Assembly (NCBI GenBank): GCA_017417055.1
Contig: JAFPZX010000200.1
Coordinates: 20,087 to 84,086, forward strand
Origin: Anaerolineaceae bacterium
GTDB taxonomy: Bacteria; Chloroflexota; Anaerolineae; Anaerolineales; Anaerolineaceae
Length of the DNA stretch: 64,000 nucleotides
Direction: 5' to 3'
The notes beneath the pieces are model-generated. The model saw only the letters and a list, made by a program, of their open reading frames with translations. It was not told the origin of the DNA and made no database searches. This document shows, one piece after another, positions 11,649-27,735 of the stretch (its first letter is position 1; every line of letters starts with the position of its first letter). The translations under genes were made by a program, and so were the position numbers.

Positions 11649-13028
11649 TCAAATAAAAGTATCATCCATGTAAGTAACATTTTTCCGTTTGTAACGAATC
11701 TCATTCTGGATTGCCCAATCCTCAGCCAATGTACCGGGAGTAAGGATGGCGGTCAGGTCTTCGATACCGTAAAAAGCCCCGCGTCCGATGGAATATAACT
11801 GATCGGGAAATTCAACGGAGGTAAGCCCGCTACATTCCATAAAGGCAAAGTCTCCGATAAAATGTAAGTTCTCCGGGAATTTTAATTCTGAAAGTGAAGT
11901 GCATTGATAAAAGGCGCCTTCCCCGATGGAGTCAAGCCCCTTTGGGTAGCTGATCGATTTCAGAGCGGTACATTCAGAAAAAACGTATCTGCCGAGCCAG
12001 GTCAGACCGGAGGGAAGCGTGACGTTTTTCAAATCCGGGCAGCCGCTGAAGGTATTGTTTCCGAGTGAAATAACACTGTCAGGAATGTTGATCGATGTCA
12101 AGCCGCTTTCTGCAAAAGCAGCATCCTTGATCGTGACAACCGTTTGCGGCAGGTTGATTTTTTTCAATTCAGCGTGTTTGTAAAATGATTCCTGCCCGAT
12201 CGATCTGGTCCCCCTTTGAACCGTATAACTGTCTGCATCCGAACCCCACAGGTAAGCAATCAGTTCCAGTTCATGCGTGTTATATAAAGCACCGGAGTGC
12301 ATTTCAAACATCCGATTGAATAGCGAAATGTTGATTTTTGTCAGGCTCAGGCACCCGCAGAACGGATTCCCATTCATTACTGCAACGGCGTCCTGTATGG
12401 TGATTTCTTTCAGATAATTGTTTTCGGAAAAAGCGGCCAATGCGATTTCGGTGACCCATTCCGGGATGACATATTCCGTATCGGTTTTCCCGGCAGGATA
12501 TGCGGTCAGTGTTGTGTTCCTGCGGTCAAACAAAACTCCCTCTTCGGTAAAATAATAAGGATTATCACCGGAAAATACAATTTCTGTAAGTGAATCACAG
12601 CGGTCGAAAGGATTGATGCCGATGTGAACGATCCCATCCGGAAGGATTATATTTTGCAGCTTCACATCTCCCTGGAAAACCAAATCCCCAAGTGAGCCCA
12701 GACCCTCCGGAAGAGAAACGCTCTGAATGTTGGTACATTCGGCAAAGGCATAATTCCCGATGGCGGTTACAGCTTCCGGTATCACAACTTCTTTCAGTGT
12801 TTCATTGCGGGAAAAAGCGTTTGTTCCGATAGAAATAACGTCATATCCATCCATTGTTTTGGGTATGATCAGTGATTCTGCTTCTCCGGTATACCGCACA
12901 ATTTCGATTTTGTCATTCTCAAGAACAGTGTATAGATAGTCTTCAAAAGTGAGATTATCCGCAAGGCCGATTTGATACATTAATAAGAATGTCAAAAGTA
13001 AAAGAACGAATACGTGCAGTCTTTTCAT
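11649..13028 (-). CDS. Secreted BspA-type leucine-rich repeat protein
   Basis: 459 residues from ATG 13028, with AAGGAG six bases upstream; an in-frame ATG at 13046 would swallow this site. Residues 1-24 form a signal peptide (hydrophobic core VFVLLLLTFLLMY, cleavage after IGLA). Nearly all the rest consists of LRR_5 repeats of about 23 residues with the pattern L-x-x-I-x-L-P-x-x-L-x-x-I-G-x-x-A-F, interrupted in the middle by less regular repeats. There is no sortase motif or membrane anchor, so it is probably exported and loosely attached. Proteins of this type bind surfaces or host molecules in some species. That role is not shown here. Confidence 0.85.
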   Translation of the reverse strand: MKRLHVFVLLLLTFLLMYQIGLADNLTFEDYLYTVLENDKIEIVRYTGEAESLIIPKTMDGYDVISIGTNAFSRNETLKEVVIPEAVTAIGNYAFAECTNIQSVSLPEGLGSLGDLVFQGDVKLQNIILPDGIVHIGINPFDRCDSLTEIVFSGDNPYYFTEEGVLFDRRNTTLTAYPAGKTDTEYVIPEWVTEIALAAFSENNYLKEITIQDAVAVMNGNPFCGCLSLTKINISLFNRMFEMHSGALYNTHELELIAYLWGSDADSYTVQRGTRSIGQESFYKHAELKKINLPQTVVTIKDAAFAESGLTSINIPDSVISLGNNTFSGCPDLKNVTLPSGLTWLGRYVFSECTALKSISYPKGLDSIGEGAFYQCTSLSELKFPENLHFIGDFAFMECSGLTSVEFPDQLYSIGRGAFYGIEDLTAILTPGTLAEDWAIQNEIRYKRKNVTYMDDTFI

Positions 13029-13181
13029 GTTTTTCTCCTTTATCATTTGCTAATCGAACGCAGCGCATGGATAGTGGCCTGATGCTGCAGGAATACCATA
13101 ACTTATCCCATACTGCTTTCTCATATACCGGATCATTTCAATAAATATTATACATGAAAAGCGTAATTATTTAATAAAATC

Positions 13182-13330: not shown

Positions 13331-14080
13331 TTAATTCGGATTCACGCTGAACTGATAAAGTGTTTTGGATCCGGCTATGATTGCGAAAGACATCGTTTCG
13401 CTGTACATCGGCGGCCAAATGTTGACAGTAAAGCTCAGCTGTCCGCCCCGGTTGACAGAGTAGGGAAGATCCCACAGTGTCCTTTCCGGTTTGGTGAGCA
13501 GATGACATCCGGATGTGCATTTGATGTCGATGTTCTTTTTGTCCCAATATTCATTTGTGGTGTTGGTGATTGTCCAGGTAAGGTTGATGGATCCGTTATA
13601 ACACCACTGCTTGTTGACCTGTACATTGGAATAGCCATTTCCAGGATAATACGGTTGGTACGGTTCATAAGGCTGGTTGGGATATTGGTTTTGATACGGA
13701 TATGGACTCTGATAAGGATTCTGATATGGATCGTCTTCGTTGATCGGATAAAAATACAGACCGGACCAGGGATCATAAATCGGACCTTGATTGGGGTAAG
13801 GTTTATATTCGGGTTGCTGTGGTTCCGGATAGACTGGGTAGGACGGTCTCGGCTGCGGCTGTTGGGGTTCCGGATAGACCGGGTAGGACGGTCTCGGCTG
13901 GGACTGTTGGGGCTGCGTATTCTGCTGCGGGATCTGACCGATCGGATACAGCTGAGGGATCGGGTAGGTCTGCTGCGGCTGAGTGTACCAGTAAGGTGTG
14001 TTCCCGTCGGCGTGAACCGCGGCGGTGATTGTGAAAAGACTGATCAGGATAAAGAATAAAAAGATATTTCTGGTTTTCAT
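13331..14080 (-). CDS. Secreted Pro/Gln/Tyr-rich protein with a C-terminal beta domain
   Basis: 249 residues. Signal peptide at 1-24 (core FLFFILISLFTI, cleavage after VHA). Residues about 30-150 are low-complexity Pro, Gln, Tyr and Asn, including two near-identical copies of QPRPSYPVYPEPQQP. Residues about 155-249 form a folded domain with a Trp and two Cys (WCYNGSINLTWTITN...CTSGCHLL). Its pattern, a WTITNTT-like strand followed by a VNRGGQLSFTVNI strand, resembles NBR1-type Ig-like domains found in Chloroflexota secreted proteins; that is a tentative match. The ribosome-binding site is unclear, with only GGGGG about 10 bases upstream. The role is unknown, possibly surface attachment. Confidence 0.7.
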   Translation of the reverse strand: MKTRNIFLFFILISLFTITAAVHADGNTPYWYTQPQQTYPIPQLYPIGQIPQQNTQPQQSQPRPSYPVYPEPQQPQPRPSYPVYPEPQQPEYKPYPNQGPIYDPWSGLYFYPINEDDPYQNPYQSPYPYQNQYPNQPYEPYQPYYPGNGYSNVQVNKQWCYNGSINLTWTITNTTNEYWDKKNIDIKCTSGCHLLTKPERTLWDLPYSVNRGGQLSFTVNIWPPMYSETMSFAIIAGSKTLYQFSVNPN

Positions 14081-14131
14081 GAGAATTTACCCCCAAATTT
14101 TTTTGTCTGATCCATAAACGATATAGAAATA

Positions 14132-14153
14132 AAAAAGTTCCATATAACTTTTT
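14132..14153 (-). terminator. Short hairpin after the recombinase gene
   Basis: AAAAAGTT at 14132-14139 pairs with AACTTTTT at 14146-14153, about 90 bases beyond the recombinase stop codon on the minus strand. It is A/T-rich and weak, but its self-complementary run gives a U tract. Confidence 0.4.
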
Positions 14154-14240
14154 CTGCTGGGCATTGGGAATGGTCCTTTAAAACACAAAACAAATATATC
14201 CGAAAAAAAGATAGAAATTACATTATATCTATGCAAGGAA

Positions 14241-14816
14241 TCAGCAGAGTTGAATATTCAGGTAGACATCATCAAGTTCATCCTGTTCAATCCCAAGATA
14301 TCGTTTGGTGACCTCGACGGAGGAGTGATTAAAGATTACCACCAATAGTGTCAGCGGTGTATGCATATATTTCCAGGCATGGTATCCGAATGTTTTCCGC
14401 AGGGAATGGCAGGCGATTTTTCCCTTTACATCAATTTTTTTCGCGGCATTGGAAATGATGCGCCACGCCTGTACGCGGGAGATGGCTTTTTCTTCTTTTC
14501 TGCCATTGCTGAAGATGAATTTCCCTTTCCGATGAGGAAAATATTTCTTCAGCGCTTCCAGAATGCGTTTGTTGAGTGCAATTCTCTTCGATTTTCCGGT
14601 TTTTCTTTCGGTCAGATCAATGTGTTTGAGAAATTGTTTTTTCTCGAAGTCATAAACGTCTGCCCACTTAAGGGAAAGCAGGTCGCTGATTCGCAGTGCT
14701 GTGTACGCACCGAATATGACAAGCACATAGTTCCGCATCTGTTTTTTATTCAAAAAATAGTCGGTCAGCGCATATAATTGTTTTTTGTCGCGAATGGGGT
14801 CAGTTGTATTACACAT
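14241..14816 (-). CDS. Tyrosine recombinase, catalytic domain only (FimB/FimE/RecV-like size)
   Basis: 191 residues with the full set of tyrosine-recombinase residues: Arg42 (TALRISDLLSL), His137 and Arg140 (CHSLRKTFG), His164 (FNHSSVEVT) and the nucleophile Tyr173 (KRYLGI). A basic Lys74/Lys76 region provides the beta-hairpin lysine. The N-terminal core-binding domain of phage integrases and XerC/D is missing. That matches the size of FimB, FimE and similar DNA invertases that control phase variation (family knowledge). AAGGAAGG lies just before the ATG. The gene is transcribed away from a 304-bp segment bounded by 26-bp inverted repeats that starts 90 bases upstream. This strongly suggests that the segment is its substrate (inference). 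Confidence 0.88.
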   Translation of the reverse strand: MCNTTDPIRDKKQLYALTDYFLNKKQMRNYVLVIFGAYTALRISDLLSLKWADVYDFEKKQFLKHIDLTERKTGKSKRIALNKRILEALKKYFPHRKGKFIFSNGRKEEKAISRVQAWRIISNAAKKIDVKGKIACHSLRKTFGYHAWKYMHTPLTLLVVIFNHSSVEVTKRYLGIEQDELDDVYLNIQLC

Positions 14817-14906
14817 GATATACCTTCCTTAATTTAGATATATATTTATATATAGAAGATTATTATGCGTGTAATTGTCTTAAACTCAATGGAAATGTTT
14901 TGCATG

Positions 14907-14932
14907 TAACTAATTTGAAATCCTGTTACTTT
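14907..14932. repeat. Left inverted repeat of the putative invertible segment
   Basis: 26 bases, starting TAACTAATTTG and ending GTTACTTT. The reverse complement occurs at 15185-15210 with one mismatch (position 8). Similarity does not extend beyond these 26 bases on either side. Confidence 0.9.
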
Positions 14933-15162
14933 TTTGTAGGAATATATTTGGAATATATATTGATAAAAGAATAAACTTGTAAGTATTCACCTGAAAGATT
15001 ATGCGTTAAGAAACAGATGTTTTGTCCGGACTATCCCCGGCAAACGTTCCTATACTCATTGCTTATTTCTTATTGCTGAATTGATTGATTCTTGATTCAT
15101 ATTTTTGTGAAAAGATTTTTGTTATTTTCGCAGATTGATTTGTTTTTTGAATACTAAAGTTG

Positions 15163-15171
15163 TGGTATGAT
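15163..15171 (+). promoter_or_regulatory. Extended -10 promoter inside the invertible segment
   Basis: TGGTATGAT: a TATGAT hexamer at 15166-15171 with the TGn extension at 15163-15165. At the -35 position there is only a T-run in TTGTTTTTTGAA, which is tolerable for an extended -10. Transcription would start about seven bases downstream, just before the right inverted repeat, and run into the polysaccharide locus. Confidence 0.55.
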
Positions 15172-15184
15172 TTGTAAATAGCGG

Positions 15185-15210
15185 AAAGTAACAGGATTTC
15201 AATTTAGTTA
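15185..15210. repeat. Right inverted repeat of the putative invertible segment
   Basis: Reverse complement of 14907-14932 with a single mismatch. It would form the 5' end of the mRNA in the present orientation. The 212 bases that follow, up to the first small gene, hold no clear gene. Confidence 0.9.
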
Positions 15211-15422
15211 TATTATGAGTATGGATCACTTTGAGATACGGATATTCGTTTATTTTTAAAGGTTGTGTAACAATCCGTGAACCATAACCGTGAAATCCGA
15301 TGCGATGCGCACCATGAAACCGAACGCGGACTGCTTTTGAAACTACTCTATTGCACATGCTGAAGGTTGAGATAAGAAGCGAGACTCTCACACTCGAATT
15401 CCGGATGAAAGAGGATATTCTG

Positions 15423-15599
15423 ATGTGGAAAGTTCGTAAAAGCAAGCGGAATGAAAGCTCCGTGGATGGCATCGCCTTGTCTGCTGAAGCCACAGAGACC
15501 TTAGTTATTTTTGAAAAACTGAAAGTTTTCAGCCCAAAAACATTGAATCATATACCGAAATCTTTTAACCTAATCGAAAGCAATAAAAGAAAAAAATGA
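15423..15599 (+). CDS. Possible small basic protein leading the polysaccharide operon
   Basis: 58 codons from ATG 15423, which has GAGG at 15411-15414 with eight bases of spacing. The stop TGA overlaps the ATG of the next gene (ATGA at 15596-15599), a sign of translational coupling. The next gene has only a poor ribosome-binding site of its own. The sequence starts MWKVRKSKRNESS and ends KRKK, and is rich in Lys, Ser and Glu. I do not recognise it. Longer in-frame starts exist at 15357 and 15405 but lack a ribosome-binding site. It could be a real small protein, or a leader ORF that opens the message for the next gene. Confidence 0.45.
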   Translation: MWKVRKSKRNESSVDGIALSAEATETLVIFEKLKVFSPKTLNHIPKSFNLIESNKRKK

Positions 15600-16759
15600 A
15601 AGATGAAATATATTATGGGCGTATAAAATATCTGAGCTTTGTTCTATTAGATTTTTTATTACTCTTAACTTCCAATTATCTTGCTTTTCAGGTTTATATC
15701 TTTCAATATAAACCTGAAAATGAATATACGCTAAATAAGCATATTTTTGTTGTAATTATTATGGCCGTGATTGATTTTTTCATTACGGCTGTGTTCAATA
15801 CACTTGAGAGAGTGTTGAGACGAAGGAAAAAAAAGGAATTATACGAGGGAATAAAACATGTCGGATACAGTTATATTACACTGGCTGTAATTCTGTTTTT
15901 ATTCAGGAAAAGTACGGATTATTCCAGGCTAACGATAACTCTGGCTTACCTTATCTATTTCGTTCTTTTTATTGGCGTACATATAATCTGGAAGTATATA
16001 TTGAAAAAATTCATACAAAAGCCTGCACGTAAGACAGTACTTTTGATGACAATGGATGGCTTCCTTAATGAGGGTATTCAAAGATTGCAGGAACAGGATT
16101 TTGATGTTCGTTATATTTATCTGCTGAAAAATAGCAAAGCAGATATTGTTGAAGGAATCCCGGTCATCAAAAAATGGGAAAGAGCAGCTTCTGCGATTTG
16201 TTGGGACCTGATTGATCGTGTATATATCTATGGCCTTGATCATAAAATGGTTCCTCAGTATATGATCAACGCCTGTAGGGAAATGGGATTGAAATTTAAT
16301 TTGGTTGATTTCACGTACCGTATCATCAATATTAAAACAATTGGTCATGATGATCCGGGCTTCGGGATATTGTCAACACTTGAGGAAAAGCGCGATATTC
16401 CATTTTCGATCCGCCGTGTCTATTGGATCACAGAAACTGAAGCCGAATTTCATCGCGGATATCATGCCCATAAATTGAATTGTCAGTTGTTATTTTGTCC
16501 GTATGGTGTTATCGATCTGATTCTGGATGATGGGACAACAAGAAATACTGTTACTCTGGACAGACCTGATAAAGGTTTGCTGTTGATGCCGGGAATTTGG
16601 CGCGAGATGGTATGGAAAAAAAGCGGATCGGTTTTGTGTGTGCTCGCATCAGGGTATTATGATCCAAAAGAATACATCCGGAATTATGATGAATTTCTTG
16701 AATACAGCCGCAAATACAGAGCAGGATCTGATAAGGTGAATCTCAATAAATCCTCTTAA
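15596..16759 (+). CDS. Fusion: polyprenyl phosphoglycosyltransferase membrane half + FdtA/QdtA-type sugar ketoisomerase
   Basis: 387 residues in two parts. Residues 1-135 contain four membrane helices (about 12-35, 48-68, 88-104, 111-135). Residues about 145-240 form a Rossmann-like domain. Together these look like the non-catalytic N-terminal half of WbaP-type sugar transferases. Residues about 272-370 are a cupin of the WxcM/FdtA/QdtA family. It has RGYHAHK with His290 and His292, the [17 protein letters not shown] block, and the [17 protein letters not shown] end. FdtA/QdtA enzymes isomerise dTDP-4-keto-6-deoxyglucose to the 3-keto sugar, the substrate for a 3-aminotransferase. That enzyme type is encoded next. 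The missing catalytic half of the sugar transferase is two genes downstream. I know of no standard family with this architecture. Confidence 0.8.
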
Positions 16760-16769
16760 GTATAAAAGA

Positions 16770-17870
16770 ATGAATATTCCTTTTGTTTCTTTTCGCTCGA
16801 TGGAACGTGAACTTGATGCAGAATTACGCGGTGCTTTTGACCGAGTTTTTGCTCGTTCCTGGTATATAAAGGGAGAAGAGAATAAATCCTTTGAAGAAGC
16901 CTTTGCCGCTTATCATGGCGTAGAACACTGTGTTGGTGTCGGCAACGGACTTGATGCGCTGATGCTCGCTCTCAAATCCCTCGGTATCGGTGAAGGAGAT
17001 GAAGTGATCGTTCCTTCCAACACCTATATTGCCACAGCTTTGGCGGTCACCTATGTAGGTGCAAAACCGGTGTTTGTTGAACCGAATATCCGCACCTTCA
17101 ATATTGATCCTTCCCGGATCGAGGCGGCTGTTACGGAGAAAACGAAAGCAATCATACCGGTTCATCTTTATGGTCAGCCATGTGATATGGATCCGATCAT
17201 GGAAATCGCCAGAAAGAGGGAATTGCGTGTAGTAGAAGACTGCGCTCAGGCGCATGGCGCCCGCTATAAGGGACAGCTTGTCGGAACCTTCGGTGATGCA
17301 GCGGGGTTTTCCTTCTATCCGGGGAAGAATCTCGGTGCGCTGGGCGATGCGGGTGCGGTGCTGACCAACGATAAAGAATTGGCGAAAAAGATCCGTGCCC
17401 TGGGTAATTATGGGTCGGATTACAAGTATCATCATATCTATCAGGGGAACAACTCCCGCCTGGATGAAATACAGGCGGCTTTCCTTTCTGCAAAACTCCC
17501 ACATTTGGACCGCATGAACGCGGAACGCCGCCGCATCGCGAAGCGTTATCTTGCGGAGATTCAACACTTGGATGTTATTCTGCCGACAGTCCCGGATTAC
17601 GCAGAACCGGTCTGGCACATCTTCGCGGTGCGCTGTTCAAGTCGGGATGCGTTGGAAAAGCACATGAATGATCACGGCATTATGACCAACAAGCACTATC
17701 CCATCCCAATGCACCTGCAGGAATGTTACCGTGACCTGGCCTTCCAGAAGGGTGATTTCCCCATCGCTGAGGAAATCAGCCAAACCGAACTATCCCTTCC
17801 TATGTTCTATGGTATGACAGAGGAAGAGATTCAATTTGTTATAGATTCGATAAATGGATTAGTCAAATAA
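16770..17870 (+). CDS. DegT/DnrJ/EryC1 sugar aminotransferase (FdtB/QdtB-like)
   Basis: 366 residues, typical for PLP-dependent nucleotide-sugar aminotransferases. Lys186 in [16 protein letters not shown] is the Schiff-base lysine, and [13 protein letters not shown] (about 156-168) carries the aspartate and glutamine that hold PLP. The N-terminal [15 protein letters not shown] and [16 protein letters not shown] blocks match FdtB/QdtB-type enzymes. With the ketoisomerase domain just upstream, the likely product is dTDP-3-amino-3,6-dideoxyhexose (Fuc3N or Qui3N). No acetyltransferase is adjacent, so N-acylation must be encoded elsewhere or done differently. The stop overlaps the next ATG by one base (TAATG). 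Confidence 0.92.
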
Positions 17871-18673
17871 TGGATAAATCTGTCGGTAACGATAATCTGA
17901 TTTCGACAGAAGAAGGAAAAATTGCAGAGCTTCTGAAAAAAAGAAATTTGCAAAAGGTAAATGAGAATTCCCAAAAAGTTCATCCAAGATGTACTTTTTA
18001 CACAAAATATGGGAAACGGTTTTTGGATTTATTGATTTCAATTCCTGTTTTTATAATTCTGCTGCCAATAAATTTTATTTTGGGAATTTGTACATTTTTA
18101 GATGTCGGACGGCCGATTTTATTCAAACAAACCCGGGTAGGGAAAAACGGTCAACATTTTATGATGGTCAAATTCCGCAACATGAATAACAAAACCGATT
18201 CGGAAGGAAAACTTCTTCCGCCTTCGGAGCGTACAACAAAATTTGGAAAAATCATGAGAAAGTATTCCTTTGATGAGCTGCTGAATTTTTGGAGCGTGCT
18301 GAAAGGAGATATGTCTATCATTGGACCGCGCCCGCAGCCGGTTTTCATTTATGATCGTATGTCAGACCGACATAAAATGCGCACAGCTTTGCGTCCGGGT
18401 CTGGAATGTCCTCGGATAATACATAACGAATGGAATAACGGCAGTTTATACCAGTGGTCGTATGAAAATGATATCTGGTATGTAGAAAATGTGAGTTTTC
18501 TTCTTGATATGCGAATGGTTATTCTTCTGATAAAAATGGTATTTTCTTTACGACATCGCAGTGATCAGGCGGTTGGACGGGGTATCAGTTATTTTGTTGG
18601 TTACGATGACGATGGAATTGCTACAAGCTATAAAAACCAGTTAGCGAGAATGGAAAAAGAAGGTTCTTTATGA
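17870..18673 (+). CDS. Initiating phosphoglycosyl transferase, catalytic domain only
   Basis: 267 residues. It starts with a polar 45-residue tail, then one membrane segment (LDLLISIPVFIILLPINFIL, about 51-70) and the bacterial sugar transferase domain. Motifs include FKQTRVGKNG, MVKFRNM, SFDELLNFWSVLKGDMSIIGPRPQP and a C-terminal ALRPGLECPRI. The enzyme transfers a sugar-1-phosphate from a nucleotide sugar to undecaprenyl phosphate and starts each repeat unit. It lacks the four-helix plus CoA-binding-like N-terminal half of WbaP-type enzymes. A half of that type is fused to the ketoisomerase two genes upstream. The next gene overlaps by four bases. Confidence 0.9.
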   Translation: MDKSVGNDNLISTEEGKIAELLKKRNLQKVNENSQKVHPRCTFYTKYGKRFLDLLISIPVFIILLPINFILGICTFLDVGRPILFKQTRVGKNGQHFMMVKFRNMNNKTDSEGKLLPPSERTTKFGKIMRKYSFDELLNFWSVLKGDMSIIGPRPQPVFIYDRMSDRHKMRTALRPGLECPRIIHNEWNNGSLYQWSYENDIWYVENVSFLLDMRMVILLIKMVFSLRHRSDQAVGRGISYFVGYDDDGIATSYKNQLARMEKEGSL

Positions 18674-19629
18674 AACATAAAGTTCTTGTAACTGCAATCG
18701 GGACTGTAACAGCAGCTTCTATTGTCAGTGAACTGAAAAAAAACGGAAGGTATTACATTCTCGGAGCGGACATCAATAATCGATATGAAATTGCCACTTC
18801 GCTGGATGTGGATGAATATTACAAGTTTCCGCTTGCTGTCAATGATGAATATCTGCCATTTGTAATTGATTTTTGCCGGGATCATCAGGTGGAATATTAT
18901 TTTGCCGTTATCGATAAAGAGGTTGTAAAGCTTGCGGAGAACAGAGAAAAATTTTCGGAAATCGGTACAAAGCTTTGTGTCGTAAACCGGGAGTTCGCAG
19001 AAATCTGCCATTACAAAGATGTTTTCAACAGTTGGATTTCTGAAAACATACCTTTCATAGGAATTAAATCATATAAGAATTACACAGATGCTGAACGAGC
19101 GTCTTTTCCGTTATTCATCAAACCGGTGGAAGGCGTCGGAAGTGCGGGATGTGTAAAAATCAATAATTCAGCGGAATTGAAGTCATTGGTTTATCCGGAT
19201 GATTTTGGAAAAAAGATACTGGTTCAGGAATTTATCACCGGTCAAAACATCACAGTGGATTGTGTCAGAAACCGCAAAACCGGTCAAAAAAATCAAATTC
19301 AGCGCCGTGAGCTGCTTCGTAATTCGCATGGCTGCGGAATTGCGGTTGAAATTATTCACGATGATAAGCTTTCAGAAATCTGCGATGAAATAATGGAAAA
19401 GCTTGATCTGAACGGTGTCTGCAATATGGAATTTTTTGAGACAGATTCCGGATACAAAATCATGGAGATTAATCCGCGGTTTTCTGCCGGGACGACTTAT
19501 TCCTGCATGGCCGGCGTCAATACGGTACAAGCTGCTATCGATATCGCTGATGGCCGTGAATGTACTTTCGGTGAGATCGCTGTAGGAGCGCACTTCGCGG
19601 AACGCTATGAAGCTTATCGTATGGACTAA
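18670..19629 (+). CDS. ATP-grasp ligase-like protein 1
   Basis: 319 residues. The N-terminal Rossmann-like pre-domain (KVLVTAIGTVTAASIVSELKK) and the ATP-grasp region (FPLFIKPVEGVGSAGCVKINN, about residues 140-160; EINPRFSAGTTYS, about 275-287) resemble the carbamoyl-phosphate synthase and PylC/D-Ala-ligase-like group. Such enzymes join a carboxylate to an amine or thiol through an acyl phosphate. In glycan loci they may add amino acids to amino sugars, which would suit the 3-amino sugar made upstream (inference). It overlaps the sugar transferase by four bases and is followed after nine bases by a second ATP-grasp gene. Confidence 0.82.
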   Translation: MKHKVLVTAIGTVTAASIVSELKKNGRYYILGADINNRYEIATSLDVDEYYKFPLAVNDEYLPFVIDFCRDHQVEYYFAVIDKEVVKLAENREKFSEIGTKLCVVNREFAEICHYKDVFNSWISENIPFIGIKSYKNYTDAERASFPLFIKPVEGVGSAGCVKINNSAELKSLVYPDDFGKKILVQEFITGQNITVDCVRNRKTGQKNQIQRRELLRNSHGCGIAVEIIHDDKLSEICDEIMEKLDLNGVCNMEFFETDSGYKIMEINPRFSAGTTYSCMAGVNTVQAAIDIADGRECTFGEIAVGAHFAERYEAYRMD

Positions 19630-19638
19630 TACAGAAAA

Positions 19639-20934
19639 ATGCTGATCAGAGGACTGAAGGGAAAAAAGATATTACTTGTCGGTGGGCTGAACAATACCGT
19701 CGATTTGATTGATCTGGCTCACCGCAACGGCGTAACAGTTGGTGTGGCTGATTATAACAAGGGGACACTTGCGAAAAGTCTTGCGGACTACGCTCACGAT
19801 GTAAGCGCCTATGATGAAGATGACATGGCAGAACTGTGCCTTTCAGAGCATTATGACGGCGTGATCACCGCATTCAATGAACGTCTCGGACCAATTGTCC
19901 GTAAATTAGCGGATCGTTTGGGTATGTATGCGCCTTTTACGGTGGAGCAGCTCCAAATGAGCACGAACAAGAAGTATTTCAAGCATACCTGTCAGAAATA
20001 CGGTGTACCGGTCCCGAAAGAATACATCATTCAATCAATTGAAGATATCTTTAAGCAGGATATTGCTTATCCGGTTATTATCAAACCGGTTGACGCGGCA
20101 AGCGCGGTCGGTGTTATTCCCTGTCGCGATTCAAAGGAATTGGAAGCCGGATATGAAATTGCAATGTCAAAATCGAAAGTCGGTGACGTGATCGTTGAGC
20201 AGTATCTGCCTTATGATGAGATCAACCTGACTTATATCGCCCAGGATGGTGACATTCAGCTGGCGGCGATCCATGACCGCTATTTCAACACCGAACAAAA
20301 AAGCGCGTCAAAAGCGCCTGATCTTTATATCTATCCCAGCCGCTATACGGATCTGATCCTTGAGAAATATAACGACAAGATCATAGCCATGCTGCAGGGG
20401 ATTGGAATCAAAAACGGTTCGCTTTTCATTCAGGCAATCGTGAAGGGTGAGGAGCTGTACTGTTATGAGGCCGGTATGCGGCTGAATGGCTGTAAGACGT
20501 ACCAGATCCTCGAAGTGGAAAATGGCTACAACACCTTTGAACATCTGATGGAACTGGCGCTGACCGGTTCCATGGGAGAAAAGGTGACCTTTGACCCACA
20601 TTTCAAACACTGGTACGCCACGCTGAATGTTCTCGGCAAACCGGGTGCCACGATCGCGGAAGTCCGCGGGGAAAAGGCTTTGAATTCCTACCCCTGGATG
20701 GTTCACATTGCCCGCCGGGATGGGGTAGGTCACACCATCCCCGCTGATTCTGCCGGTACCCTGGTGCAGGATACCACCCGCATCCATATTGCCGCTGATA
20801 CAAAAGAACAACTTATGGAACGCATCGACCGCACTAATGAGCTCTTTCAGCTTCTGGATGCAGATGGGAACAGCATTATTCTCCCGCCCCATGACACAAA
20901 AGAGGTTCTTGCGGGGTTGAATTACGAATTGTAA
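19639..20934 (+). CDS. ATP-grasp ligase-like protein 2
   Basis: 431 residues with a PurK/PurT-like arrangement: a nucleotide-like N-terminal domain (KILLVGGLNNTVDLIDLA), the ATP-grasp core (YPVIIKPVDAASAVGVIPCRD, about residues 143-163) and a metal-binding block (CYEAGMRLNGCKTYQILE, about 275-292). A C-terminal beta domain (HTIPADSAGTL...) follows. It is clearly different from the preceding ATP-grasp protein, so the pair is not a recent tandem duplication. It probably catalyses an ATP-dependent carboxylate ligation during sugar modification. Substrates are unknown. Its GC content is visibly higher than that of the downstream glycosyltransferases. Confidence 0.82.
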   Translation: MLIRGLKGKKILLVGGLNNTVDLIDLAHRNGVTVGVADYNKGTLAKSLADYAHDVSAYDEDDMAELCLSEHYDGVITAFNERLGPIVRKLADRLGMYAPFTVEQLQMSTNKKYFKHTCQKYGVPVPKEYIIQSIEDIFKQDIAYPVIIKPVDAASAVGVIPCRDSKELEAGYEIAMSKSKVGDVIVEQYLPYDEINLTYIAQDGDIQLAAIHDRYFNTEQKSASKAPDLYIYPSRYTDLILEKYNDKIIAMLQGIGIKNGSLFIQAIVKGEELYCYEAGMRLNGCKTYQILEVENGYNTFEHLMELALTGSMGEKVTFDPHFKHWYATLNVLGKPGATIAEVRGEKALNSYPWMVHIARRDGVGHTIPADSAGTLVQDTTRIHIAADTKEQLMERIDRTNELFQLLDADGNSIILPPHDTKEVLAGLNYEL

Positions 20935-20943
20935 AGAGTTTCA

Positions 20944-21834
20944 ATGAATATTTTGATTACCGGTTCGGATGGATTTCTTGGTTCAAAGATAACCCTCGCA
21001 ATTCAAGAGAATACTTCCTGGAATGTACTTGGCCTGACAAGGTCAAAGGATCTTGTGCAAAGTATGCAGAATCAAGATACAGGTATTGATCTTAGCCGCG
21101 TTCAGTATCTAACCAATGAAGAATTCTTACATTCACGTCAAGTTGATTGGGATTTATACGGGGCGGTTCATTTGGCCTTTTCTCGCCGTATGCAGCCGGC
21201 AGCAGATATTGCTTCCTCTATTAATTTTGCTGCTGCTGTTTTCCATAAGCTTGCGGATCTTCATACTGACCGTGTGATCAATATGTCTTCTCAGGGAATA
21301 TATGGAAATACACCGGAAATCAGAACAGAAGAAACGCTGCCGGCTCCGGAAACACATTATTCGATGGCAAAGTATGCCTCAGAAATTTTATTCAATGATA
21401 TTCTGCGGGATTGTCCGCATCACACAAATTTACGCCTTGATCCTGTTGCTCAAAGTCAAAATGTATTAAAAGGATTGATAAAATCTGCGAAAGAAGGTGT
21501 TATCAACCTGAAGGGTGGAAAACAGGTTTTTTCTTTTATTGATGCGGATGATGTGCCTTCTGCTGTTATTTCAATGCTTAAATCAAAAGGTGATTGGGAT
21601 CTTGTTTACAATGTCGGTTGGAACAGAAAACGATATACTTTGATTGAATTAGCAAATCTCATCGCAGATGAAACTGAAAATGTGGGGTATCAACGACCGG
21701 TAATCAATATCGAAAATGCAGAATTTTTTTTATGGTCAGGACTTGATTCTACAAAGTTCCAGAAAAAAACAGGATGGACACCGGTTACACAATTGTTTGA
21801 TACGGTTAAAAAAATGTTATTAGATTGTGGATGA
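20944..21834 (+). CDS. NAD-dependent epimerase/dehydratase family protein
   Basis: 296 residues, extended SDR type. The nucleotide-binding motif GSDGFLG is at residues 7-13, the catalytic Tyr139-x3-Lys143 in HYSMAKYASE, and NMSSQGIYG supplies the active-site serine. It is slightly short for the family. The product cannot be specified: it could be a 4-epimerase, a 4-reductase or a dehydratase. It starts nine bases after the ATP-grasp gene and is probably in the same operon. The 155 bases after it are AT-rich and hold no clear gene. Confidence 0.85.
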   Translation: MNILITGSDGFLGSKITLAIQENTSWNVLGLTRSKDLVQSMQNQDTGIDLSRVQYLTNEEFLHSRQVDWDLYGAVHLAFSRRMQPAADIASSINFAAAVFHKLADLHTDRVINMSSQGIYGNTPEIRTEETLPAPETHYSMAKYASEILFNDILRDCPHHTNLRLDPVAQSQNVLKGLIKSAKEGVINLKGGKQVFSFIDADDVPSAVISMLKSKGDWDLVYNVGWNRKRYTLIELANLIADETENVGYQRPVINIENAEFFLWSGLDSTKFQKKTGWTPVTQLFDTVKKMLLDCG

Positions 21835-21989
21835 AAACACCTCCGGTCAATTTGGAATTCAAGCAAGTTCTTTAATTGGAATTAAACCGGAACTAAGCAA
21901 AATTATTAAAAAAATGGATTTACTTCTTCCATTTTCTTTTGAAAGAAAATAGAGCTCGGTAATATGAATCAAATTCAGGTTTTAGTTAA

Positions 21990-23156
21990 ATGGACAGTAG
22001 TAAAACAATAAATATTTTACATGTGACCATTGGAGATGGAAACTATGGGGGTATCGCGAGTTTTCTGCATACGTTTTACAGTTATGTAGATCATCAACGG
22101 TTCCATTTTGATGTTTTATATTGCGGAGAAAATTCACTGAAAAGCAAAGAATCTGATCCTGTCTGGTCTGATTCAAAGATAGAAGCGTTACACATTTTAA
22201 AGAAAAATAATGGGATATCAGAATATATAAGGTTACTGCCAAAATTAAAGAAAAAACTGTATGAAAAAGATTATGATATCGTCCATGTTGAAAGCAATAA
22301 TCCGTTCCTGAATGCCTGCGTTTCAATTTTAGTAAATAATCAAATAGTTTATATTTCTCATTCACATAATTCTAAGCCGAATATCATTTCTGGATCAAAA
22401 GGAAATAGATTATTCAAAAAGACAATTTCCGGATTAATGAGAGTAATCATAAGAAAAAAGGCGGATGCGTTATTTGCCTGCTCAAAGGAGGCGGGATTAT
22501 ATTTATTTGGAGAAAAGGGGATAAGATCCAATAAGTTTTGTATTGTTCCCAATGCAATCGAAACCGGTAAATTTAAATTCAATAAAAACATACGACAAAA
22601 ATTAAGAAATAAAGAAAACTTCATTATTGGATTCGCAGGACGTTTGGAATTGCAAAAAAATCCGATTTTTGCTGTCAATGTTTTCTATGAAATCTTGAAA
22701 AAGAACCAAAATGCTGTTTTGTGGATCATCGGAGATGGTGACAAAAAGACTGCAATCGAAAAAAGAATAAAAGAATTTAAAATACAAGATAAAGTGTTCA
22801 TGTTGGGACAGAGAAATGACGTTTCTGATTTAATGCAGGCAATGGATATTCTTTTATTCCCTTCTTTTTATGAAGGTTTTGGTATTGTTGCTATTGAAGC
22901 GCAATGCTCCGGATTAAGAGTCGCTGCATCAGACAGTGTTCCCGATTCTGTAAATCTAACCGGTCTTGTTTCATTTTTACCATTATCAGAGTCACCGGAA
23001 TATTGGGCTGATTATATCATCAGCAATCAACTTATGGAAAAAAATCGCGAAGATATGTCAGAAATAATCAAGAACGCAGGCTACGATATCAAAATTGCTG
23101 CGGAAAAACTTGAAGATCAATACATGATGCTGCTGCGGGAAAAGCACAAATCGTAA
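21990..23156 (+). CDS. GT4 family glycosyltransferase
   Basis: 388 residues, GT-B fold. The N-terminal glycine-rich loop is DGNYGGIASFL. The donor-binding E-x7-E motif is in PSFYEGFGIVAIEAQ (about residues 290-304), preceded by GFAGRLELQKN and DLMQAMDILLFPS. It transfers a sugar, with retention, from a nucleotide sugar to the lipid-linked repeat unit at the cytoplasmic face. It is markedly AT-rich (many AAA, ATA and TTA codons) compared with the 16.7-20.9 kb genes, suggesting a separate origin. The ribosome-binding site is weak. Confidence 0.9.
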   Translation: MDSSKTINILHVTIGDGNYGGIASFLHTFYSYVDHQRFHFDVLYCGENSLKSKESDPVWSDSKIEALHILKKNNGISEYIRLLPKLKKKLYEKDYDIVHVESNNPFLNACVSILVNNQIVYISHSHNSKPNIISGSKGNRLFKKTISGLMRVIIRKKADALFACSKEAGLYLFGEKGIRSNKFCIVPNAIETGKFKFNKNIRQKLRNKENFIIGFAGRLELQKNPIFAVNVFYEILKKNQNAVLWIIGDGDKKTAIEKRIKEFKIQDKVFMLGQRNDVSDLMQAMDILLFPSFYEGFGIVAIEAQCSGLRVAASDSVPDSVNLTGLVSFLPLSESPEYWADYIISNQLMEKNREDMSEIIKNAGYDIKIAAEKLEDQYMMLLREKHKS

Positions 23157-23252
23157 CTGTTCAGAACTTGAGTGACGCAACACCAGTACAGTTTTCTTGG
23201 GTGGATTTCACCACAATAAAAAAGCTGTCCGGTATGTGCTCCGTTCTGAATA
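23153..23252. repeat. Dispersed palindromic repeat, family 3, copy 1
   Basis: An imperfect palindrome with ends GTAACTGTTCAG and TTCTGAATA. TTCAGAAC pairs with GTTCTGAA on the outside; inner pairings include ACAG/CTGT and TTTT/AAAA. The same ends occur at 30968-31057, and the inner part resembles 28818-28886. It begins at the stop codon of the GT4 gene. Confidence 0.7.
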
Positions 23253-23273
23253 GATACATTAATAATATTTTTG

Positions 23274-24479
23274 ATGTTTATTACAATTACGAGAGGGTTT
23301 GAGGATAATTCATTGGAAAAAAAATTTTTTATATTTAAATATTTTTGCATAAAGATCCTGCGGTTGTTTTCAAAATTATCTTTCCTGATTCCTTTACGAA
23401 ACAATCAGATTTTGCTGATTGCTTACAACGGGAAGGAGTATTCTGACAGCCCCAGGTATATTTCTGATTACATTCAAAAGCGGGATCAGAAAAACGATTT
23501 TATTATGTACTGGGCTGTAAAAGAACCTGAAAGATATAAAAATATGGAAACAAAAAACCTCAGGTTCATCGAATATAGAAGTTTGCGTTTCGCGTTGGAA
23601 CATATGCGTTCAAAATTTATCATAACAAACATAAGCCCGATGAAAGCAATAGCGGGGCGTAAAGGGCAGGAAATTATCAGTACCTGGCATGGCGGCGGCG
23701 CTTATAAAAAGGTAGGTATGGCGCAATATCATCAATCGAAAGCTCGGCTTTCAATTGTTCGAATGACGATGAAGGATTCAACATTGGTACTAAGCAGCAG
23801 TAAGGCGTTTACGGACGTTTGTATCCATGACGCGTTTCATTATGAAGGTGCTGTCCTGAATGCAGGGTTACCGAGAAATGATATTCTTTTCAAGTCCGAT
23901 GTTCATTATGGAATCAAAGAAAAAGTAAAAAATTTTTTTTCGCTTCCTTCAGCTATGCATATTGTTTTATATGCTCCTACCTATAGACGATCCGAATTAA
24001 ATTGGGCTGAAAAAATAGATTTTAAAGAATTGCTGAATTCGCTTCAAAATAGATTTTCCGGTGACTGGATCATCCTTTATCGCGCTCATAACATGATGAA
24101 TCGGGATGACATGGTTTTGCGGAACAATTCCCTTTTAGATGCAACTGATTACCCGGATATGCAGGAATTACTGATTGCGGCGGATGTTTTGATCACGGAT
24201 TATTCTTCTTCTATCTGGGATTATTCGTTACTGAAAAAACCCGGTTTCCTATTTGTTCCGGACTTAGAATACTACGAGGAAAATAACGGACTTTGTACAC
24301 CGATCGAAAAGTGGGGATTTGCGGTTTGCAAAACCAATGAAGAGCTGAAACAAAAAATCCATGATTATGATCAGAAGGAGCAAATCCGGGCTATTAGCGA
24401 AAACCATAAATTGTTTCATAGTTATGAAACCGGAAAAGCCTGTGAGTATGTTTATGATTACATCATAAGCAAAATCTAA
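23274..24479 (+). CDS. CDP-glycerol/polyol-phosphate transferase (TagB/TagF family)
   Basis: About 401 residues, PF04464-type. Characteristic blocks are IISTWHGGGAYKKVG (about residue 130), LNAGLPRNDILF, VLYAPTYRRSE, YRAHNMM and the C-terminal ADVLITDYSSSIWDYSLLKKPGFLFVPD. Members move glycerol phosphate or ribitol phosphate from a CDP-polyol to a growing chain. The next gene encodes a CDP-polyol-forming type of cytidylyltransferase, so the polymer probably carries a polyol phosphate. ATG 23274 lacks a ribosome-binding site. TTG 23313, with GAGG eight bases upstream, is a good alternative start and would remove 13 residues. Confidence 0.85.
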   Translation: MFITITRGFEDNSLEKKFFIFKYFCIKILRLFSKLSFLIPLRNNQILLIAYNGKEYSDSPRYISDYIQKRDQKNDFIMYWAVKEPERYKNMETKNLRFIEYRSLRFALEHMRSKFIITNISPMKAIAGRKGQEIISTWHGGGAYKKVGMAQYHQSKARLSIVRMTMKDSTLVLSSSKAFTDVCIHDAFHYEGAVLNAGLPRNDILFKSDVHYGIKEKVKNFFSLPSAMHIVLYAPTYRRSELNWAEKIDFKELLNSLQNRFSGDWIILYRAHNMMNRDDMVLRNNSLLDATDYPDMQELLIAADVLITDYSSSIWDYSLLKKPGFLFVPDLEYYEENNGLCTPIEKWGFAVCKTNEELKQKIHDYDQKEQIRAISENHKLFHSYETGKACEYVYDYIISKI

Positions 24480-24528
24480 TCAGTCCATATAGATAATTTA
24501 AAAATGTAAGTATTTAGAATTCAACAAC

Positions 24529-24592
24529 GCCCATGAGGACAGGCACGCTTGTGTCGGCTTTACGACACAAGGTGCCAGTCCCCAAGTGCTCC
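24529..24592. repeat. Dispersed palindromic repeat, family 2, copy 2
   Basis: The core CGACACAAGGTGCC at its right and GGCACgCTTGTGTCG at its left pair across a short loop. Outer arms GAGGACAGGC and a TCCCC block also pair. The reverse complement closely matches 7867-7928. It lies between the TagF-like gene and the cytidylyltransferase gene. Confidence 0.75.
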
Positions 24593-24606
24593 TTTCTGAT
24601 AAATAA

Positions 24607-25350
24607 ATGAGAAAACAAAAAAATATGAATATCGCCATTATATTCGCAGGTGGGGTTGGACAACGGATGAACGCAAAGGCCTTGCCGAAGCAGTTTCTGG
24701 AAGTGCATGGCAAGCCGGTTATCATTTACACGCTGGAACACTTCGAAAGCCATCCGGATATTGACCACATCATTGTGGTCTGCGTAGAAGGATGGATCGA
24801 CTACCTGCAATCCCTGCTGAAAAAATTTTATATCACCAAAGTTTCCGCGATCGTCCCCGGCGGTGATACCGGACAACATTCTATTCGCAATGGAATCTAT
24901 AAAGCGGCTGAATTGTATCCGGAAGACAGTATCGTCCTCATCCACGACGGAGTACGTCCGCTCATCACTGCACAGATCATCACTGATTGTATTGACACTG
25001 TAAAAAAGCATGGCAATGCGATCACTGTCTCGCGCGCTATCGAAACGATCGTCATTTCTTCCACGGATCAGCGTGAAGATGTCGCGGATGTTGTTGACCG
25101 TTCCCGCTGCATGATGGCACGCGCCCCGCAGTGTTTTGTCCTGCGTGATATTTATGCCGCGCACAAAAAGATGGATGAGACCGGGTATACCAATATCATT
25201 GATTCAGCCATGCTGATGCGGGAATTCGGAATGACACTGCATACGGTGGAAGGAGTGCCCGAGAATATAAAAATCACCACACCGGCTGATTTTTATATGT
25301 TCCGTGCACTTCTTGACGCACGGGAAAATTCTCAAATTATCGGTATGTAA
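24607..25350 (+). CDS. IspD/TarI-family polyol-phosphate cytidylyltransferase
   Basis: 247 residues. The nucleotide-binding N-terminus AIIFAGGVGQRM...LPKQFLEVHGKPV, the ILIHDGVRP-type motif (VLIHDGVRPLI, about residues 116-126) and MARAPQCFVL are typical. It activates a polyol phosphate with CTP. The context argues for TarI/Abp1-like CDP-ribitol or CDP-arabinitol synthesis rather than isoprenoid biosynthesis: a TagF-like transferase lies upstream and an epimerase-family oxidoreductase follows directly. ATG 24607 or ATG 24625 may be the start; neither has a good ribosome-binding site. Confidence 0.85.
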   Translation: MRKQKNMNIAIIFAGGVGQRMNAKALPKQFLEVHGKPVIIYTLEHFESHPDIDHIIVVCVEGWIDYLQSLLKKFYITKVSAIVPGGDTGQHSIRNGIYKAAELYPEDSIVLIHDGVRPLITAQIITDCIDTVKKHGNAITVSRAIETIVISSTDQREDVADVVDRSRCMMARAPQCFVLRDIYAAHKKMDETGYTNIIDSAMLMREFGMTLHTVEGVPENIKITTPADFYMFRALLDARENSQIIGM

Positions 25351-25390
25351 TAGTAAAAAATTCATAACAGTTATAAGGTTGAAGAGCAAA

Positions 25391-26452
25391 ATGCCAATTA
25401 ATCAGGTATTGGAAGAAGATTTAAAACAAACAGTTCACAGCGCTATTCCCTGGGAGAGCTTGAAATCCGGCAGGTTTTTAATTACAGGAGCCACCGGCTT
25501 GGTCGGATCGATGCTGGTAAAAACCCTGCTTTACGGTAATAAAGAAAAAAATCTGGACATAAGTGTTTATGCCGTCGTTCGCAGCCGAGAAAAGGCGAAT
25601 GATATTTATAAAGATTTTCTTCCGGATCCCGCTTTGAGGTTTATTAATGTTGACCTGACAATTGATGATCTGGCAGTCGATGAACCCATTGATTATATCA
25701 TCCATACAGCCGCTGTTACCAAATCAAAAACAATGGTTGAAAAACCGGTCGAGACGATTCAAACAGCTGTTTTCGGGACCATCAAAACACTCGAACTGGC
25801 AAGGGTAAAAAAGGTTAAATCGTATGTCTATATCTCCTCCATGGAAATGTATGGCATATTTGCGGATTCAAGCAAGATGACCACGGAAGATGACCTTGGA
25901 TATATAAATCCATTGGCAGTAAGAAGCAATTATCCGGAAAGCAAGCGAATGTGTGAAAATATATGTATTTCGTATCTAAGCGAATATCAGGTTCCTGTGA
26001 AAATTGCCCGCCTTGCTCAAACATTCGGAGCAGGGATTCTTCCGGATGAAAACAGAATTTTCGCTCAATTTGCCCGCAGTGTTTTGTCTCAAAAAGATAT
26101 CGTCCTGCACACAAAAGGGCTTTCAGAAGGCAATTATTGTTATCTCAGCGAGACCATAGAAGGAATTCTCCTTTTGTTGATAAAAGGGGAAACCGGTGAG
26201 GCTTATAATATTGTCAATGAAAATTGCCACACAACAATAGCGCAAATGGCTGAAATGATTGCCAATGAGATAGCCTGCGGTAAAATCAAGGTGGTCTTCG
26301 ATATTCCACAAAAAAATATTTATGGTTATGCATCTGATACGCATATGAAGTTATCTTCGGAACAAATGAAAAACCTGGGATGGCAGCCAAAGATTGATTT
26401 GAAAGAATCCTATCTGCGTTTGATTAAATTTTTAAAAATAGAAGAAAGATAA
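25391..26452 (+). CDS. NAD-dependent epimerase/reductase, possibly polyol-phosphate forming
   Basis: 353 residues from ATG 25391, after an AAGG...GAAGAG region. Longer in-frame starts overlap the previous gene and read as non-conserved. The Rossmann motif GATGLVGS is near residue 32, the YISSMEMYG serine block near 150 and YPESKRMCE (Tyr-x3-Lys) near 185. IspD-like enzymes paired with an NAD-dependent epimerase-family protein occur in pneumococcal CDP-arabinitol pathways (Abp1/Abp2). By analogy this enzyme may reduce a ketose phosphate to the polyol phosphate used by the preceding cytidylyltransferase. A plain nucleotide-sugar epimerase is the alternative. Confidence 0.8.
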   Translation: MPINQVLEEDLKQTVHSAIPWESLKSGRFLITGATGLVGSMLVKTLLYGNKEKNLDISVYAVVRSREKANDIYKDFLPDPALRFINVDLTIDDLAVDEPIDYIIHTAAVTKSKTMVEKPVETIQTAVFGTIKTLELARVKKVKSYVYISSMEMYGIFADSSKMTTEDDLGYINPLAVRSNYPESKRMCENICISYLSEYQVPVKIARLAQTFGAGILPDENRIFAQFARSVLSQKDIVLHTKGLSEGNYCYLSETIEGILLLLIKGETGEAYNIVNENCHTTIAQMAEMIANEIACGKIKVVFDIPQKNIYGYASDTHMKLSSEQMKNLGWQPKIDLKESYLRLIKFLKIEER

Positions 26453-26464
26453 TCCGGAATCGAA

Positions 26465-27634
26465 ATGAATATTGGAATTTTCTCATTAGAAACAATCAAT
26501 AACGCCGGGGATGAAATCCTTGGTGAAACAACGCAATGGCTTGTGCATCAAAATGCTGATAAAGTAAACGTCAGGAGAATTCAGTTTTCTCCTGATAAAC
26601 ATTTGTTAATTGGAGAATATCCTGTTCAGCTTTTCTTTTGTAAAATCATCCGTATATTTGCAGATATTTTTCCGCAGGGAAATTTCAAATATAAACTGCT
26701 CAATGCCGCCTACAAAATTAAATTATCACGTTATTATCATGATGAGATGAAACAATTGGATGGCGTCATCACAGCAATCGGAATGTTGAAGTTTACTACA
26801 CAGAATTTCAGTTATCTGTATGATTTGCTGCTAAAGGAAGCCGGTAAGCTCCAGCTTCCGGTCATGATCAGCGCTGCCAGTATCGCAGAGAAAAATGATG
26901 AAGATTGGCGTTGTGAACAATTAAAAGAGGTTGTTAAAAGTCCATCTTTGAAAATCATAACAACAAGAGATGGCCGGCAGGGTCTGGACCGGCTCAAGAA
27001 AGAATACCCGGTTCGTTCAGATGTTTTTTGTGATTATGCCGGAGATCCCGCCTTGTGGATACCAGACGCTTACAATGTAAGAAAAGCTGCAGGGAAACAC
27101 TGTATCGGAATTAATCTCATTCGGAGTGATATTTATTTATCTTATGGCGGCCATACTTCTGAAGATGAGTTGATGGAATTTTATGAAAATTTGATTTCGA
27201 ATTTGTTACAGAAAAATGAGCCATTTAAATTATTTTGCAATGGCATAACCTCTGATTACGAGGTAGGAAAGAAATTATTACAAAGGTTGAGCCTTTCGGA
27301 TGATTATTTATGTCCAAAACCATAAAATTCGAAACAATTTTTTTCTGAAATTTCCCAATTCGATATTGTTTTTGGTGCACGATTGCATGCATGCCTTACA
27401 AGTTATGCTTTGGATATACCGGTTGTTGGGTTATTATGGGACGATAAATTACGTTTTTTTTCTGATAATGCCGGTATCAAAAATTATTTTCTGGAAGAAA
27501 ATCAACTAATTGGCGAAAAGGCTGCTGAACTGCTCATCAACAGCAGAAAATATGATTATGACCATAACATCAGAGATCATTATAAAAATCGCACAAAAGA
27601 AAGTATTGGAAAATTTCTCAACGAATATCTGTAA
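26465..27634 (+). pseudogene. Polysaccharide pyruvyl transferase, interrupted by an in-frame TAA
   Basis: The frame from ATG 26465 encodes a PF04230-type enzyme that would transfer pyruvate from PEP to a sugar. Its N-terminus reads FSLETINNAGDEILGE, and CDYAGDPALWIPD follows later. After 286 codons it meets TAA at 27323-27325. The same frame then continues without a gap and restores the conserved C-terminal block SQFDIVFGARLHACLTSYALDIPVVGL up to the stop at 27632-27634. So one nonsense codon, not a frameshift, breaks a 389-codon gene. It could be a real inactivating mutation, a sequencing or assembly error, or a phase-locked variant. The N-terminal piece alone lacks the donor-binding region and should be inactive. 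Confidence 0.8.
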
Positions 27635-27735
27635 TTTTACTTCTGGTAAAAATGTATCAGATTAATAAAAAAACGTCAACGGAAGCGAAAGCAGCTGGAT
27701 TTATATCTGAGCTTTTTTATCAATGAGGCATATTC

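Follow-up and report, generated by a model that had tools for sequence, protein, structure and literature searches.

Does the short AT-rich segment between a recombinase gene and a polysaccharide locus in an Anaerolineaceae genome work as an invertible promoter? The window, meaning the whole 64,000-nt stretch of contig JAFPZX010000200.1 that was analysed, belongs to an assembly (G000) of 4.4 Mb in 200 contigs that is 85% complete with 5.5% contamination. A 16S gene was not matched in the assembly itself but was in 4 of 12 same-genus relatives searched. Two full copies (L057 and L058) carry the exact sequences of three Chloroflexota probe targets (GNSB941, CFX1223 and CFX784), a partial copy of G012 (L062) carries two of the three and one of G010 (L061) a single one, which supports the assignment to Chloroflexota. 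A preliminary description of this DNA had proposed a phase switch. Our analysis supports that proposal: the region is very probably an inverton, that is, an invertible promoter forming the ON/OFF switch of the polysaccharide operon and flipped by the adjacent recombinase.

The recombinase and the repeats beside it

The gene at 14241-14816 (minus strand) encodes a putative invertase of 191 aa consisting of the catalytic domain only. It scores 78.5 bits against PF00589, above the curated cut-off, and so belongs to the tyrosine recombinase superfamily. Six residues that we take to be catalytic (R42, K72, H137, R140, H164 and Y173) are invariant in 12 aligned recombinases (the window copy counted), in agreement with the earlier claim of a 191-aa tyrosine recombinase with all catalytic residues. 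A parallel with FimB and FimE had also been drawn; it holds as far as a small tyrosine invertase is concerned and fails for family membership. Against the NCBIfam models NF007370 and NF007371 (labelled 'tyrosine-type DNA invertase', 198 and 200 positions long), which are presumably the FimE and FimB models, the protein scores 28.1 and 28.4 bits with cut-offs of 221 and 222, and it therefore lies outside the FimB/FimE family. A PDB search at E <= 1e-8 matched XerA and one XerC-like protein only.

The 26-nt repeat nearest the recombinase sits 90 nt upstream of its start codon. The two inverted repeats (14907-14932 and 15185-15210) match at 25 of 26 positions, whereas 200 dinucleotide shuffles of window 14001-15400 gave 26-nt inverted repeats with 21 matches at most (mean of the best, 18.4); the 26-bp repeats with one mismatch around 252 bp, as first described, are thus above chance. 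Extended to 29 nt they match at 93% and lie 252 nt apart. The recombinase-proximal repeat (14904-14932, plus strand) holds the core site GTAACTAATTTGAAATCCTGTTAC at 14906-14929, and the distal repeat (15185-15213, minus strand) holds a core site at 15188-15211. Between them lies the predicted invertible segment (14933-15184, 252 bp, GC 0.29), which by its repeats and the place of its promoter motif would be in the ON orientation in the assembly. A flipped form of the segment was not found as a separate contig in the assembly.

The recombinase may have a promoter of its own within the roughly 90 nt that separate gene from site. The candidate, TTGAGT-16-CATAAT at 14889-14862 (minus strand), lies outside the segment and is one of four matches in a sigma-70 scan where 4.7 are expected by chance; its CGCATAAT-like stretch is common to a paralogous locus on contig C174 of the same assembly, in reverse complement. 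It had been suggested that in the OFF state the segment's promoter faces the recombinase and could favour switching back. Such feedback is possible; given the candidate promoter outside the segment, it is optional.

Site pairs and motif place at related loci

In a family scan the recombinase was found at E <= 1e-20 in six of 147 genomes. Four of these (G000, G012, G005 and G006) are of the same genus. In the other two (G041, with two copies, and G124) the recombinases are 37-39% identical to that of the window, no comparable repeat pair was found near them, and they were left out of the site analysis. Full site pairs number five, in three same-genus genomes: the window, G012_C12, G005_C51, G005_C27 and G005_C127. 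At G012_C12, G005_C51 and G005_C27 the layout is recombinase, two inverted sites and a divergent NusG-like gene. At G005_C127 (L095 2871-3061) the site pair and an ON-oriented motif are followed by two LoaP-like genes, with no recombinase match on the contig, making this pair a candidate for control in trans. The recombinase therefore adjoins the pair at four of the five full-pair loci, and it also adjoins the site on C174.

The C174 recombinase is 94% identical to the window copy. Its contig ends 115 nt past the site, so that the second arm is unseen. No partner or other copy of the C174 site was found elsewhere in the assembly within 3 mismatches, and the last 226 nt of the contig match, besides themselves, only C116 and a relic on C99, plus nine matches at E 0.46-5.6. 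With the assembly's completeness and contamination as given above, C174 could come from another strain.

All five pairs follow the pattern GTAAC-N14-GTTAC, apart from minor deviations. Their arms agree as well between loci as within them (left arm, 4.6/5 within and 4.6/5 between; right arm, 4.2/5 and 4.1/5). The central 8 nt behave differently: within pairs 7, 7, 7, 6 and 8 of 8 positions match (mean 7.0), against 4.05/8 between loci. True pairing alone, among 120 possible pairings of the sites, reaches the observed central-match sum, part of this similarity being by construction because three of the five pairs came from an inverted-repeat search; the C27 and C127 pairs, located through their arms, still match in the centre. 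In the window the spacers agree at 7 of the 8 central positions, and a single base in one 5-nt arm of the distal site departs from the proximal site.

Inside the right end of the segment lies an extended -10 element, TGGTATGAT (15163-15171, plus strand), with 16 nt between its end and the right-hand 24-nt core site. As originally noted, it faces the 13-kb polysaccharide locus (15596-28770). Its -35 is poor, and the general sigma-70 scan, which was at chance level (4 sites found versus 4.7 expected), did not report it; the putative promoter is therefore identified by its extended -10 and by comparison across loci. The criterion was TGN followed by at least 5/6 of TATAAT, no more than 25 nt from an arm, a limit set post hoc. 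Such an element lies near exactly one arm, pointing at that arm, in all five full segments, and the C174 half-segment has one at its only visible arm; in shuffles such an element occurs near an arm at 0.65-3.7% per end. Weaker -10 motifs (4/6) are present deeper inside the window, C174 and C127 segments.

The arm at which the motif lies differs between homologous loci. In the window, G012_C12 and G005_C127 it lies by the distal arm and faces the operon (ON); in C174, G005_C51 and G005_C27 it lies by the arm next to the recombinase (OFF). This comparison of orientation across relatives, which had been proposed as a check, thus gives three ON and three OFF among six segments as judged by motif place, with C174 counted as a half-segment. 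Together with the matched-spacer pairs, the opposite places in the three OFF segments favour the earlier reading that the assembly shows the ON state. Agreement between window and C174 is limited to the motif and its place, since direct alignment of their 70-nt promoter ends is no better than shuffles (750/2000 reach the score).

A combined site-plus-promoter pattern was also searched in 14 same-genus genomes. It occurs at seven places (window, C174, G005_C51, G005_C127, G012_C12, one in G007 and one in G008), five of them loci on which the pattern was designed, and it missed G005_C27; its backwards control occurs at 36 places in all, so that the count shows no enrichment. Within G000 the window and C174 are its only two places.

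Several same-genus loci are decayed. On C99 of the window's own assembly a broken recombinase and a drifted single distal site accompany TGGTAGAAT, which faces a leader and a LoaP gene; to judge from this arrangement, the relic is apparently fixed in the ON state. Neither of the two recombinase copies of G006 has a detectable pair: one is broken (C38), and the other is at a contig end (C51, where the contig starts 94 nt upstream of the gene). Single-arm remnants were seen by eye before LoaP-like genes in G006_C55 and G013_C28.

Leader, LoaP and the polysaccharide operon

Between the segment and the operon lies a conserved leader element (15307-15481, plus strand), detected with nhmmer and by alignment. 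Leaders of this kind, about 170-210 nt long, were found in eight of 14 loci searched (four of the eight being seeds, and two matches partial), where they lie upstream of either LoaP or the first polysaccharide gene; of the five full-pair loci all but G005_C127 have one. Covariation supporting an RNA helix is weak, and Rfam gave no family at gathering score for window 14000-16000 (five weak matches). The leader loci (window, L041, L042, L011, L038, L098, L096 and L094) may carry an antitermination signal. LoaP is described as recognising a hairpin in leader RNA, with a published UNCG hairpin (PMC12691694; mechanism also in PMC7819879). No terminator-like site was found on the plus strand of 14700-15700.

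The polysaccharide locus has 13 main ORFs, all on the plus strand and all scanned with Pfam. The first gene (15596-16759) combines a CoA_binding_3 domain (25.3 bits, cut-off 25) with an FdtA/WxcM-like domain. It is followed by a DegT/DnrJ/EryC1 sugar aminotransferase (16770-17870), a bacterial sugar transferase (17870-18673, PF02397), two ATP-grasp proteins (18670-19629 and 19639-20934), an NAD-dependent epimerase/dehydratase (20944-21834), a GT4-type glycosyltransferase (21990-23156), a CDP-glycerol glycerophosphotransferase-like protein (23271-24479, PF04464), an IspD-like cytidylyltransferase (24607-25350) and an epimerase (25304-26452). Two adjacent ORFs (26465-27325 and 27383-27634) that have no Pfam match are possibly one interrupted gene, and a GT2 glycosyltransferase (27736-28770) ends the operon. 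The aminotransferase, sugar transferase, glycosyltransferases and CDP-glycerol transferase-like and IspD-like proteins are reminiscent of a teichoic-acid-like polymer. No Pfam match to a flippase or polymerase was found among the 13 ORFs. Elsewhere in the window, 13331-14080 encodes a Pro/Gln-rich protein with 45-nt tandem repeats and, by eye, a secretion-signal-like start; it adjoins a BspA-type LRR protein (11649-13046).

At each of the other four full-pair loci a LoaP-type gene follows the switch; a second LoaP-like gene is present at three of them, and polysaccharide genes come next where the contig extends. NusG-like proteins from G012_C12 (two), C99, G005_C51 and G005_C127 (one each) were tested, and all five exceed the NCBIfam LoaP cut-off (NF033641; 132-147 bits versus 125); that of G005_C27 was identified by Pfam NusG only. 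In the window, tblastn with three LoaPs gave nothing below E 0.05, hence neither LoaP nor a remnant of it; LoaP-like genes are present elsewhere in the assembly, on C1 and C99. The preliminary description needs correcting here: judged by gene content, the window is a LoaP-less version of loci whose switch precedes LoaP.

The proposed switch would work as follows. The small tyrosine recombinase would pair two 24-29 nt sites, each with GTAAC/GTTAC arms around a spacer, and cut within the spacer, whose sequence is almost the same at the two sites, so that the 252-bp segment inverts. In the assembled orientation the promoter would read rightwards through the leader into the operon (ON); after inversion it would point at the recombinase gene and no longer serve the operon (OFF). 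At the related full-pair loci the promoter side would lead into a NusG-like/LoaP gene and from there into polysaccharide genes. As the window keeps the leader and lacks LoaP, its promoter would read about 415 nt directly into the operon, acting on it either alone or with a LoaP-like protein supplied from C99 or C1. From this arrangement we infer that the window recombinase catalyses the inversion, that the inversion is reversible in cells, that the promoter is active and that its state affects phenotype.

Rival readings, relatives and known systems

Locked remnants are present in the genus, and the main rival to the inverton is that the window is one as well: once inverted, now held ON, with its recombinase inactive or its sites drifted. 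The C99 relic with its motif facing LoaP, the broken copy on G006_C38 and the single-arm remnants show that such decay happens, and the differing base in one arm of the window pair would fit its beginnings. The window recombinase, however, is full length, retains all putative catalytic residues and is 94% identical to its paralogue, and the spacers match at 7/8 central positions; we regard a locked remnant as unlikely. It is also conceivable that the promoter is fixed, with the repeats around it serving as operators or structural elements, and that the recombinase works elsewhere, in resolving plasmids or mobile elements. There are indeed 1834 plasmid and 161 phage records, mostly of Firmicutes by the genus names listed, with recombinases that match most of the query. 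A crossover site of a tyrosine recombinase is expected to have conserved arms and a locus-specific, matched spacer, and it is this structure, rather than that of an operator, that the five pairs have. In addition, the recombinase adjoins the pair at four of five loci, and inspection by eye of the ORFs in window 9000-31000 (part of them Pfam-searched) revealed no mobile-element gene. These points leave the operator reading quite improbable.

Inverted repeats around a short AT-rich segment could also be the ends of a MITE or an insertion sequence. Many unlinked copies of the 304-bp unit, named in advance as the observation that would speak for a MITE, were looked for in the assembly, and the unit proved to be single-copy. 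Its 18-nt repeat stretch (at most 2 mismatches) is present at the two arms only, and the C174 site likewise has no other copy within 3 mismatches. We rejected this reading, which is scarcely credible for a unit, repeat and paralogous site without unlinked copies in the assembly. The inverton remains our preferred reading.

Relatives of the recombinase are found beyond the genus. In a tree of 17 recombinases, five of them taken from the 1995 matching phage and plasmid records, those of the same genus, of a Eubacterium MAG and of two human faecal records fall together (12 of 17 rows, split support 99/98), and the other plasmid or phage recombinases and those of G041 and G124 fall outside. The same-genus group itself has support of 93/88, below the full-support mark. 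A search of IMG/VR found no relative. The Eubacterium MAG has four copies, three of them adjoined by 29-nt repeat pairs with ATGCAAC/GTTGCAT arms (L053 4759-4939; L037 736-1187; L054 5620-6475, where the pair encloses the recombinase). The remaining copy lies at a contig start and has other repeats, with one ATGTAAC/GTTACAT site by eye. A csrA gene beside the pair is confirmed by Pfam at L037, where a flagellin start was seen by eye, and csrA-like ORFs were seen by eye at two others; this gene content suggests that the pairs may be flagellar switches. Among three phage or plasmid records checked (L100-L102), two have no comparable repeat pair; L101 (MT837916.1), a human faecal record deposited as phage, has 33-nt inverted repeats of 100% identity (2382-2414 and 3167-3199) that enclose a related recombinase.

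A wider scenario, close to an even call and put forward tentatively, is that small tyrosine invertases with GTAAC/GTTAC- or GCAAC/GTTGC-type sites moved between Firmicutes (here the Eubacterium MAG and the human faecal records) and Chloroflexota and became attached to different surface programmes. In the Eubacterium MAG the programme would be csrA and flagellin. In Chloroflexota it would be a polysaccharide switch of two layers, with LoaP driven from an invertible promoter and in turn letting polymerase pass the leader into the operon. The window would then be a one-layer derivative without LoaP.

Invertible promoters before loci of NusG paralogues and polysaccharide genes are already known in Bacteroidota; what differs here is the recombinase group, LoaP in place of UpxY, and the phylum. 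In groups dominated by Bacteroidota, the regulatable genes near invertons are described as enriched in UpxY family genes (PMC11892184). As these sources present them, the Bacteroides UpxY loci are alike in having an invertible promoter for surface polysaccharide loci with a NusG paralogue as target (PMC11892184, PMC5903667). They differ in phylum and in the paralogue, which is LoaP-type in the Chloroflexota relatives and absent from the window locus. The recombinases differ too: in B. fragilis one serine recombinase, Mpi, is reported to act on at least thirteen scattered regions (PMC5903667), whereas that of the window is of the PF00589 tyrosine type and the Chloroflexota recombinase adjoins its own segment at four of five full-pair loci.

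RecV of C. difficile, as described, is likewise a tyrosine recombinase that inverts short segments upstream of surface genes, at flagellar and cwpV switches (PMC5903667, PMC5386303, PMC7446863); by the same descriptions its targets are others and it serves several switches (PMC5903667). FimB and FimE of E. coli are small tyrosine invertases whose promoter segment, fimS, is of similar size (314 bp; PMC9993118), but the window recombinase scores 28 bits with their cut-offs at 221-222, and the target is polysaccharide here and fimbriae in E. coli. For Eggerthella lenta a preprint describes inversions of DNA by which capsule genes change their position with respect to loaP; these are megabase inversions at a 16-bp repeat, with breakpoints reported to have no adjacent recombinase gene (PMC13174815). 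The cps1 inverton of Akkermansia muciniphila lies beside a capsule locus outside Bacteroidota and has reads in both orientations, but its repeat motif is CGGATT..AATCCG and the main text of that source mentions neither a recombinase nor NusG (PMC13343947). The open-access literature searched, which mostly leaves subscription journals outside, gave no earlier report of an inverton or of phase variation by inversion in Chloroflexota or Anaerolineae, in line with the original remark, whose author was aware of none of this kind described in the phylum.

The locus thus offers a testable phase-variation system in Chloroflexota, a little-studied phylum, and the definition of its site permits a direct search for more such switches. 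If the window did lose LoaP, its operon could depend both on the state of its own promoter and on LoaP from another locus. More broadly, these loci bring together invertible promoters, polysaccharide operons and antitermination genes of the LoaP type, paralleling the UpxY loci of Bacteroidota with different parts; such a parallel would point to more than one origin or spread of the same control logic.
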